Assembly: GCF_036689815.1 (NCBI RefSeq)
Contig: NZ_JBAHUR010000010.1
Coordinates: 73,194 to 137,193, forward strand
Source of the DNA: Magnetovibrio sp. PR-2
Lineage (GTDB): Bacteria > Pseudomonadota > Alphaproteobacteria > Rhodospirillales > Magnetovibrionaceae
DNA length: 64,000 bases
Direction of reading: 5' to 3'
The notes under the pieces are model-generated. The model had not been told where the DNA came from, searched no databases, and was given only the letters and a program-made list of their open reading frames with translations. Position 1 is the stretch's first letter. Every line of letters starts with the position of its first letter. Below are positions 21,685 through 23,891 of the stretch, piece by piece. Position numbers and translations under genes: made by a program.

Positions 21685-22053
21685 CTATGGGTAAAATCCA
21701 TCTTTCAACGATCTCGCATTATCTCTGTTCGTAGAGCAGGTTCCCATGCGTCGATCCGGGCTGTATATGGCATTCCCGTCCAGTCGTTGGTTGCTGTAGG
21801 TATAATATGTGAAATCGATTACCGTCCAGCCGTCTGCTTCAGTTGAGAGTGTATTGATCAGGAGGTTGTCGGGATTTGGGGCGTGCCCGTCTGAAGAACT
21901 ATTATTGGTATGGACAATGCGACAAGTCCTTGAAATCACATATTGGGCAAATCGCCCCACGCTTGGGTCCACACCAGGTGCATACCCACTTGTCTGACAG
22001 CCCCCAACGGCCAGAGCTAGAAAGACGGGGAAAAATATAAGTTTTGTCGGCAT
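21685..22053 (-). CDS. Small hypothetical lipoprotein
   Basis: A 122-residue predicted lipoprotein: a hydrophobic N terminus ends in the lipobox AVGGC at about 19. The mature part has two further Cys, many Asn, Ser and Tyr, and no recognised domain. It follows the second lipoprotein gene by 6 bases, and both begin their mature part Cys-Gln-Thr and share a similar size and Cys spacing, so they may be diverged paralogues. Inserted between leuB and asd, which are adjacent or close in related genomes. Confidence 0.7.
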   Translation of the reverse strand: MPTKLIFFPVFLALAVGGCQTSGYAPGVDPSVGRFAQYVISRTCRIVHTNNSSSDGHAPNPDNLLINTLSTEADGWTVIDFTYYTYSNQRLDGNAIYSPDRRMGTCSTNRDNARSLKDGFYP

Positions 22054-22059
22054 GATTTC

Positions 22060-22425
22060 CTACTTCCCGTAAGGGGGTATAGTCGCAATAAAGTGCTTTG
22101 CGCTGGCTTGACCGTCGTTCCATTCTGCCGTTGAACAGGCCAATTCAGACGTTTTGGTGTTGGCATATATATCGAGACCCTGACTGCGTCGGTATGCCTT
22201 GGCCTTGATCCAACCGTCTTGGTCCGGCGCTGAAGCTGTCCAAATCTCAACATCGTTGAGATAATTTTCGATGCTCGTTGCTGCTCTGGGCCCTGCACAG
22301 TGCTTTTTAACGAGACTGATGAGCCAAGTGTCATGTGGAGAAGCGGTGTTCGTCGTTTGACAGCCGCTGAGGATAGCGACAGCGCTTAATACAGTGGAGG
22401 CAACCCAGATTTTTTTTAATGTCAC
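22060..22425 (-). CDS. Small hypothetical lipoprotein
   Basis: A 121-residue predicted lipoprotein with the lipobox ILSGC at about residue 22. The mature domain includes a CAGP and an ELACSTAEW motif and a central segment IWTASAPDQDGWIKAKAY. No family recognised. First gene of a two-gene minus-strand unit; base composition is more AT-rich than the flanking leu and asd genes, suggesting a later arrival. Confidence 0.7.
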   Translation of the reverse strand: MTLKKIWVASTVLSAVAILSGCQTTNTASPHDTWLISLVKKHCAGPRAATSIENYLNDVEIWTASAPDQDGWIKAKAYRRSQGLDIYANTKTSELACSTAEWNDGQASAKHFIATIPPYGK

Positions 22426-22516: not shown

Positions 22517-22545
22517 TTGCCATACCCCTCAAATCCCGCTACAAA
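22517..22545 (+). promoter_or_regulatory. Probable promoter of the asd leader
   Basis: TTGCCA (22517-22522) and TACAAA (22540-22545) with a 17-base spacer, placing transcription start near 22552, about 24 bases before the leader-peptide ATG. Confidence 0.5.
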
Positions 22546-22575
22546 TCCCCCAAGATTTAAAGCTAAGGACAAGAC

Positions 22576-22695
22576 ATGAGCCACGTTTCGGCACATTTTG
22601 AGAATTTCTCCGCCACGGCACCTGCCGCTGGCGCGCCCGTGCTTGGGCTGTCCTTTGCAAAAACCACCACCAAAACCACCAAGACTGCTGTTTAG
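22576..22695 (+). CDS. asd leader peptide, 39 residues, Thr/Lys-rich
   Basis: A short open frame with an excellent RBS (AAGGA six bases before the ATG). The peptide ends in K-T-T-T-K-T-T-K-T-A-V: nine consecutive residues are Thr (six) or Lys (three), right before the stop. Threonine and lysine are end products of the pathway that asd feeds, so this has the hallmarks of a ribosome-mediated attenuation leader comparable to thrL. The following RNA can form alternative hairpins (see the attenuator entry). The inference of regulation is mine; I know of no description of it in this lineage. Confidence 0.75.
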   Translation: MSHVSAHFENFSATAPAAGAPVLGLSFAKTTTKTTKTAV

Positions 22696-22749
22696 CGGGC
22701 TTTCGGTTTTGCTTAGAATGCAACCAGGCCCGCGGACAGCTCCGCGGGC
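22671..22749 (+). promoter_or_regulatory. Candidate asd attenuator
   Basis: Four segments fit mutually exclusive pairing. CAAAACC within the Thr/Lys codons (22671-22677) can pair with GGTTTTG (22705-22711). GCGGGC at the leader stop (22695-22700) can pair with GCCCGC (22728-22733). GCCCGCGGA (22728-22736) can instead pair with TCCGCGGGC (22741-22749), a 9-base stem with a CAGC loop. The last hairpin would be the terminator, but no T-run follows it. A further hairpin, 22763-22785, lies before the asd RBS and could act at translation. Confidence 0.55.
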
Positions 22750-22807
22750 TTCGGTGTATGGGGCCCTTGGAGCACTTCCAAAGGCTCTTACATAGGAGAA
22801 GAAGAAA

Positions 22808-23833
22808 ATGGGTTTTAAAGTCGCCGTCGTCGGTGCCACGGGCAATGTGGGCCGCGAAATGATGCAAACGATGGTCGATCGCAACTTTCCGGCCGACGAA
22901 GTCGTCGCGCTGGCCAGCCATCGGTCCGTCGGCAAAGAAGTCGCTTATGGCGATGACAAAACGCTGAAATGCGAAGACTTGGCAACGTATGACTTCACCG
23001 GAACCGACATCGTGCTGTCCAGCCCGGGCGCTTCGGTGTCTGCCGAGTTTTCCCCCAAAGCTGCGGCTGCGGGGGCTGTGGTCGTGGACAACACGTCGCA
23101 TTTTCGCATGGACCCGGACGTGCCGCTGGTGGTTCCCGAAGTGAACCCTGAAGCCATCGCGGACTATAAGAAAAAGGGCATCATCGCCAACCCCAACTGC
23201 TCCACCATCCAAATGTTGGTGGCGTTGAAGCCGCTGCACGACTTGGGCACGATCATGCGCGTCGTGGTTTCTACGTATCAGTCCGTTTCCGGTGGTGGCA
23301 AGTCGGCCATGGACGAGCTGTTCAACCAAACCCGCGGCGTCTATATGAACGAACCGGCGGAGAAGCATCGTGAGAACTTCACCAAGCAAATCGCGTTCAA
23401 CGTCATCCCGCACATCGACAAATTCATGGACGACGGCCAAACCAAAGAAGAATGGAAAATGGTCGTCGAAACCAAGAAGATTTTGGATCCGAAGATCAAA
23501 GTCTGCGCCAACTGCGTGCGCGTCCCGGTGTTTATCGGTCACGCCGAAATGGTCAACGTGGAATTCGAACGCGAAGTGTCCGCCGACCAAGCCCGCGAAG
23601 CTTTGAGCGAAGCGCCCGGTTGCGTCGTGGTGGACCACCGCCAAGACGAGGGCTACGTCACCCCGGCAGAGTGCGCGGGCGAAGACGCGGTTTATATCTC
23701 GCGCATTCGCGATGACGCCTCAACGGAGAACGCGTTGAACTTCTGGTGCGTGTCCGACAACTTGCGCAAAGGCGCGGCGCTGAACACGGTGCAAATCGCC
23801 GAGATTTTAGCGAGTGACTATTTGGGCAAATAA
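22808..23833 (+). CDS. asd: Aspartate-semialdehyde dehydrogenase
   Basis: A 341-residue NADPH-dependent enzyme reducing aspartyl phosphate to aspartate semialdehyde, the branch point to lysine/diaminopimelate, threonine and methionine. The Rossmann motif VVGATGNVGREM, the catalytic Cys in NPNCSTIQM, and the substrate-binding RVPVFIGHAE are clear. A good RBS (TAGGAGAAG) precedes the ATG. Its transcript appears to start about 256 bases upstream with a Thr/Lys-rich leader peptide. It is the last gene of the leu-asd region and is followed by a two-way terminator. Confidence 0.97.
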   Translation: MGFKVAVVGATGNVGREMMQTMVDRNFPADEVVALASHRSVGKEVAYGDDKTLKCEDLATYDFTGTDIVLSSPGASVSAEFSPKAAAAGAVVVDNTSHFRMDPDVPLVVPEVNPEAIADYKKKGIIANPNCSTIQMLVALKPLHDLGTIMRVVVSTYQSVSGGGKSAMDELFNQTRGVYMNEPAEKHRENFTKQIAFNVIPHIDKFMDDGQTKEEWKMVVETKKILDPKIKVCANCVRVPVFIGHAEMVNVEFEREVSADQAREALSEAPGCVVVDHRQDEGYVTPAECAGEDAVYISRIRDDASTENALNFWCVSDNLRKGAALNTVQIAEILASDYLGK

Positions 23834-23860: not shown

Positions 23861-23888
23861 GCCCCGGCGCCTGCGTCGGGGCATTTTT
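23861..23888. terminator. Bidirectional terminator between asd and the response regulator gene
   Basis: GCCCCGGCGC and GCGTCGGGGC pair almost perfectly and are followed by ATTTTT on the plus strand and TTTTCTTTT on the minus strand. Confidence 0.85.
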
Positions 23889-23891
23889 GCG

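Follow-up and report, generated by a model that had tools for sequence, protein, structure and literature searches.

A leader peptide rich in threonine and lysine codons and a probable two-input transcription attenuator upstream of asd in Magnetovibrio and its relatives

The window analysed here, a 64,000-nucleotide stretch of DNA from Magnetovibrio sp. PR-2, contains asd, the gene for aspartate-semialdehyde dehydrogenase, and upstream of it a short open reading frame that nearly ends on an unbroken row of threonine and lysine codons. The enzyme, Asd, supplies the last precursor shared by lysine, threonine, methionine and diaminopimelate. Does translation of the short frame control the gene behind it? 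Comparison with relatives strongly supports the interpretation that the first-pass annotation had offered (starvation for Thr or Lys, ribosome stalling, an altered RNA fold): the asd leader is very probably a ribosome-mediated transcription attenuator with two inputs, Thr and Lys.

Leader frame, predicted promoter and competing stems in the window

The features of the locus are:

22517-22545, plus strand: predicted promoter, TTGCCA (22517-22522), 17 nt, TACAAA (22540-22545); start expected near 22552
22565-22569, plus strand: Shine-Dalgarno sequence AAGGA of the leader ORF, 6 nt 5' of its ATG
22576-22695, plus strand: leader peptide ORF, 39 codons, ATG to TAG; translation MSHVSAHFENFSATAPAAGAPVLGLSFAKTTTKTTKTAV
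22660-22686, plus strand: control codons KTTTKTTKT, nine Lys or Thr codons in an unbroken row
22671-22677, plus strand: strand 1, caaaacc, pairing with ggttttg at 22705-22711; putative pause/protector hairpin
22695-22711, plus strand: strand 2; GCGGGC (22695-22700) is the putative antiterminator half, GGTTTTG (22705-22711) pairs with strand 1
22728-22736, plus strand: strand 3, gcccgcgga; gcccgc (22728-22733) can pair with strand 2 (antiterminator) or the whole with strand 4 (terminator)
22741-22749, plus strand: strand 4, tccgcgggc, 3' arm of the putative terminator hairpin (covariation; dG -28.5)
22749-22760, plus strand: imperfect U-tract CTTCGGTGTATG
22794-22798, plus strand: Shine-Dalgarno sequence AGGAG of asd, unpaired in the local fold
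22808-23833, plus strand: asd, aspartate-semialdehyde dehydrogenase, 341 aa (PF01118, PF02774)
23861-23890, plus strand: predicted terminator-like hairpin 3' of asd

The 39-codon frame, its ribosome-binding site and the nine Thr or Lys codons near its stop are all found where the first-pass annotation had placed them; the peptide ends in KTTTKTTKT, then Ala-Val and the stop codon (22693-22695). Within the window by itself, such a tail is rare and not unique: among 2,054 frames of at least 14 open codons, four reach seven Thr or Lys codons in the last 14 and two, the asd leader being one of them, reach nine. Across relatives it is far beyond chance. The closest named relatives of the window's Asd are those of Magnetovibrio, at 91% identity.

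In an alignment of ten family sequences, the TTGC and the TA of the second promoter box are invariant upstream of the leader, as is the AGGA of the leader Shine-Dalgarno sequence. The predicted promoter at 22517-22545 is absent from the consensus promoter matches. A transcription start before the leader is predicted from the conserved TTGC..TA pair; the first-pass annotation had held a start downstream of 22695 to be incompatible with its reading, and the promoter-like pair sits upstream of the leader. Farther upstream, between leuB and the asd promoter, the minus strand carries two adjacent ORFs of 122 and 121 aa (21685-22053 and 22060-22425) with lipoprotein-like N-termini and no Pfam match.

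All three competing stems that had been described are present in the sequence. Folded separately, the stretches of the 1:2, 2:3 and 3:4 stems yield -13.9, -19.9 and -28.5 kcal/mol (z -1.8, -2.6 and -3.0, respectively, relative to dinucleotide shuffles). When 22576-22770 is folded as one piece, the 1:2 and 3:4 hairpins coexist, matching what is expected of the terminated state. The first base of strand 2 is the third base of the leader stop codon.

These elements suggest the following sequence of events. RNA polymerase would start near 22552 and a ribosome would translate the leader. With Thr-tRNA and Lys-tRNA both charged, the ribosome would reach the stop codon at 22693-22695 and cover strand 2; strand 3 would then pair with strand 4, and transcription would end before asd. 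A shortage of either tRNA would stall the ribosome within 22660-22686, leaving strand 2 free to pair with strand 3; the terminator could then not form, and asd would be transcribed. If the leader were not translated at all, the 1:2 hairpin would hold strand 2 and the 3:4 hairpin would be the default terminator. Promoter use, translation in this organism, stalling, termination, the direction of the response and the sufficiency of a single amino acid are predictions from this architecture.

Conservation of the peptide tail and of alternative pairing

A search of 41 genomes supplied 30 asd loci and genome contigs a further 80; removal of 10 duplicates leaves 100 upstream regions. Among their 17,022 stop-terminated frames, 48 have at least seven Thr or Lys codons in the last 14, and 42 of the 48 lie at -170 to -90 of asd on the asd strand. 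With the cut set at five in that interval, 46 of the 100 loci qualify; L042 (a tail of five at the end of a ~70-aa ORF) is left out because R1, a covariance model described below, finds nothing there at E ≤ 1, so that 45 leader loci remain. L042 shares with L041 and L043 an ORF of ~50-70 aa before asd that is Thr-rich near its end (e.g., DTTTTKP) and that may encode another small protein or represent a derived leader; L041 and L043 fall below the cut in Thr/Lys tail count. Thirteen leaders from genomes of the class outside the order bring the set to 58 (L252, whose switch is doubtful, is included; L180 is the same contig as L060 and is counted once).

The first-pass annotation had proposed looking for the frame and its Thr/Lys run across Rhodospirillales. 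Both are kept there, with synonymous third-base changes. In the 58 leaders, the Thr/Lys share of the last 14 codons is 61% in frame vs 13% and 3% in the shifted frames, and the run stays in frame while its third bases vary: Thr is encoded by ACC (222), ACT (43), ACG (50) and ACA (22), Lys by AAA (98) and AAG (61). None of the 58 has fewer than two Thr codons or lacks a Lys codon, and 57 have at least two Lys codons; the leaders were picked for Thr and Lys content, so the level is partly a product of selection, which the presence of both in every leader is not. Ile occurs in 21 of the 58 and Met in eight. An in-frame start with a Shine-Dalgarno-like 4-mer is found in 43 of the 58 only.

Counted back from the stop, codons -3 to -10 are Thr or Lys in 78-90% of cases, falling to 26% at -14 and 10% at -1, and the strand-2 motif begins 2-7 nt past the first base of the stop codon in 51 of the 58 leaders. 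A ribosome stalled at least five codons before a stop would leave strand 2 free, given the size of its footprint. Read from sequence, the Thr/Lys plateau is the ruler of a stalling switch, in which a ribosome at the stop codon would cover strand 2.

The N-terminal part of the leader varies freely between genera; the Thr/Lys tail is the conserved part. This pattern bears on the idea that the small peptide, or the terminated RNA as an sRNA, acts in trans and that the switch is secondary, for which peTrpL and rnTrpL of S. meliloti are the precedent (described in PMC7298713 and in passages of PMC10117765): a free N-terminal part with a retained tail is what control in cis predicts, and action in trans is accordingly highly improbable as the main function. 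At L037/L162 the attenuator hairpins are kept and the Thr/Lys run is lost (only VRITAGG precedes the stop), as in a decaying or re-purposed switch.

The gene order around asd would fit a more trivial origin, a chance ORF before an ordinary terminator between leuB and asd: leuB lies within 1,500 nt upstream of asd in 22 of the 45 leader loci (its end 232-363 nt before asd in 17 of those 22), as it does in 22 of the 55 loci without a leader. The comparison already refutes this origin, which is vanishingly improbable against a conserved frame, codon plateau and alternative pairing and their link with asd.

Compensatory changes in both alternative stems had also been anticipated, and here the result is divided. 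In the alignment of 37 leaders, 89.3% of the cells of the terminator helix are paired, and its covariation score (0.137 vs 0.084 in shuffles) is reached by none of 500 shuffles; this is one of five measures, two of which are without excess over shuffles in that alignment (pairs changed on both sides, 33/500; pair types, 117/500), and relatedness among sequences can by itself produce an excess over shuffles, with no structure involved. The terminator thus bears out the expectation by covariation score and does not by both-side changes and pair types. The antiterminator is 92.9% paired in the same alignment and is nearly invariant, which is why no covariation beyond shuffles is found within the order; its compensation appears across lineages, where the pairing is kept with changed letters. 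Strands 2 and 3 read GCGGGC/GCCCGC in most of the alignment, GCGGCC/GGCCGC in family f59 and GAACCTC/GGGGTTC in f118.

Among 20 representatives, none of 20,000 permutations matches the preference of strand 2 for its own strand 3 over those of other lineages, and own pairing beats the mean of the others in 18 of the 20 (the exceptions are L197 and L025). The preference persists without hand-set arms (0/20,000 with 17 automatic arms) and with one representative per family (5/20,000 with 11 representatives, the family of L039 being assumed); three control stretches, upstream and downstream, have no own-partner preference in the permutation test. The 1:2 pairing, a hairpin that in the window overlaps the control codons, is weakly supported within the family (285/20,000) and unsupported across lineages (2,085 and 3,876 of 20,000 permutations). 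Mutually exclusive antiterminator and terminator pairing is, on this reading of the sequences, kept by evolution. Sequence and comparison establish the peptide frame, the control codons, their spacing, the alternative stems, their conservation and the link with asd.

Distribution of the probable attenuator and its predicted terminating step

Covariance model R1, built on the 37 leaders and applied with a cut-off of E ≤ 1e-4, has 113 matches in 110 of 281 genomes of the order, and 104 of the 113 lie upstream of asd (75 assigned by their position or from a fetched locus, plus all 29 of a later fetch, each of the latter with a Thr/Lys tail of at least five). A detectable asd leader is thereby found in 103 of the 281 genomes, asd itself being present in 273; in the other 178 R1, which is tuned to one set of letters, detects no asd leader. 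Named carriers of the leader include Magnetovibrio blakemorei MV-1 (L006/L034) and Telmatospirillum siberiense (L056). The fetched stretches of the remaining nine matches, all weaker than E 2e-6, contain no asd by tblastn; most of the nine end a longer ORF and resemble ordinary terminators. One weak match (L151, G211:C252:16-128, E 5.9e-6) lies at a contig start and has a Thr-rich tail, VTTTTAMTER, before a stop codon; there is no asd within the 2.5 kb fetched. Genome G099 has two asd copies (on C87 and C1), each with its own attenuator by R1.

In the window's genome only the asd site is a clear match (E 1.8e-13), and no second copy of the switch is found by R1: the runner-up (E 6.7e-4) covers model positions 45-115 only and overlaps an opposite-strand match. 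No tail of at least six Thr or Lys codons is found in the 1-1.5 kb fetched upstream of hom and lysC in this genome. The feature is real, conserved and tied to asd as far as these searches reach.

The gap between the R1 match and asd is 32-162 nt in 70 of 72 cases measured; it is 540 and 598 nt in the other two, with a GNAT gene in between. A GNAT acetyltransferase gene between attenuator and asd is seen in G100, G060 and G061 (L157:634-1146:+, L158:1211-1771:- and L285:151-696:-), so that the switch would control both genes there.

The first-pass annotation had remarked on the missing T-run after the last hairpin, and the defect is real: the tail 3' of strand 4 is CTTCGGTGTAT, a poor U-tract. 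This is the main reservation against the reading as a classical transcription attenuator, and transcription termination is assigned here by prediction. The tails of relatives read, e.g., GGGCCTTGGTTTT or GGGCCTTTTCGTT; in many relatives a T-rich stretch follows a GC-rich hairpin, and CCTTTTCGTT is a clear example of such a stretch. No U-tract is found after the terminator-like hairpin in L046, L059, L060, L211 and L290, which keep leaders and alternative hairpins, and a search by the T-rule finds no terminator in L046, L059, L060, L211 and L252. Clades that lack the U-tract and keep leader and hairpins suggest another means of halting transcription there.

Two further readings start from these tails. 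If the leader controlled asd translation, the position of the ribosome changing access to the asd ribosome-binding site (e.g., via a hairpin at 22760-22788), the weak U-tract in the window and its absence from L046, L059, L060 and L211 would cause no difficulty. That hairpin exists, but its stability does not stand out (z -1.4), and in the local fold the asd Shine-Dalgarno sequence remains unpaired; the T-rich stretches that follow GC-rich hairpins in many relatives, and the R1-to-asd gaps, two of them spanning a GNAT gene, also count against control at the asd ribosome-binding site, which is improbable. The specific version that the first-pass annotation had left available, through a hairpin at 22763-22785, is unsupported because the asd Shine-Dalgarno sequence stays free, and we have rejected it. 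Alternatively the same switch could operate with Rho or pausing as the cause of the premature stop, at least for clades lacking a U-tract. This overlaps with the two-input attenuator and differs from it in the last step only; a strong hairpin with a poor U-tract or none in several clades fits it, whereas clear T-rich tails, e.g., CCTTTTCGTT, are seen in relatives that share the architecture, and it retains a small but appreciable likelihood.

The asd leader itself extends beyond the order. In a sample of the class, R1 has matches in 13 of 387 genomes, eight of which are asd leaders. Two of these eight belong to the order (the window's genome and one other); the rest are G288 (f31), G447 and G526 (f157), and G316, G505 and G572 (f59). 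The fetched loci of the remaining five genomes contain no asd. R1 being tuned to one letter set, asd upstream regions in the class were read directly, and a Thr/Lys tail of at least seven is found in 8 of 80 and in two of nine further regions (f118, f59, f120 and f132), although L252, from f132, lacks a clear switch. Many lineages are without the leader: no Thr/Lys tail is found in the interval in loci of Azospirillum (2), Skermanella (2), Inquilinus (1) and Pelagibius (3). On balance, with considerable room for doubt, the asd attenuator responds to lack of either Thr or Lys and has an ancient origin within Alphaproteobacteria, occurring both in the window's order and in several other families, its RNA letters replaced wholesale while peptide tail and pairing logic were kept, with SEP5 of Sinorhizobium as one case.

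Known leaders and the aspartate pathway

The control codons of the enteric thr leader are those of Thr and Ile. The thrL-thrABC attenuator of enterics (Rfam RF00506, Thr_leader) likewise has a short leader with control codons, 1:2, 2:3 and 3:4 strands and an aspartate-family gene downstream; its target is thrABC, whereas the asd leader has Thr and Lys codons and the gene asd. RF00506 scores 26.9 bits (E 0.0043) at the leader on the window stretch, relative to a gathering score of 55, and gives sub-threshold coding-strand matches in 12 of the 18 relatives examined, at 22.2-37.6 bits with E from 0.002 to 8.7 (less than 0.05 in two); it also matches the opposite strand in L107 and L011. Filing the asd leader under Thr_leader is rejected, since every locus scanned is below the gathering score, the best at 37.6 bits. 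No Rfam family is matched at gathering score in the window and 20 relatives. The asd RNA motif of streptococci (RF01732) also lies upstream of asd; it is not known to have a leader peptide. It shares that position with the asd leader, and it is unmatched at gathering score in the window and 20 relatives. The key comparison of proteobacterial attenuators, by Vitreschak in 2004, reportedly has an abstract without asd; its full text could mention asd.

In Alphaproteobacteria, passages of PMC1273637 and PMC10117765 mention an ilvB leader peptide and a trpL leader, respectively: same mechanism and same class, with other amino acids and genes. Closest to the case at hand is SEP5 of Sinorhizobium meliloti, a translated sORF (Ribo-seq, Western blot) treated in passages of PMC10117765 (2023), where it is noted to carry six Thr and three Lys codons close to the 3' end, to lie in the 5'-UTR of an 'aspartate dehydrogenase' gene, to be a possible leader peptide and to be conserved only in Sinorhizobium; those passages give no hairpins, mechanism or wider distribution. 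Two leaders of family f120, L211 and L290, likewise contain six Thr and three Lys codons among the final 24, and from this shared composition we infer that the gene downstream of SEP5 is asd. SEP5 is probably the same thing as the asd leader, in a distant relative. The first-pass annotation's remark that no such leader is known for asd in Rhodospirillales accordingly needs a footnote for SEP5 as those passages of PMC10117765 describe it; among the matches listed for the open-access literature, titles and the starts of abstracts describe no such attenuator in Rhodospirillales, and a term look-up in PMC2965389, PMC8632094, PMC1262725 and PMC1273637 finds no mention of asd. The proposed mechanism is the classical one; for the combination of Thr and Lys codons with asd as the target, no description was found apart from the SEP5 remark.

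The retention of the leader across relatives suggests that it probably lets the cell raise Asd when Thr or Lys is short. A leader that reads Thr and Lys jointly would explain how two branches are balanced by one RNA switch and no regulator protein; if true, joint control of the aspartate-pathway branch point by its end products would here take place at the level of RNA. By R1 the family spans 103 of 281 genomes in the order, with others in the class, and it provides a test set for the action of two codon types within one stalling window. It also offers a predicted function for small ORFs of a class that is easy to overlook, and it suggests that SEP5, a translated small ORF reported as genus-specific, belongs to a much wider group.
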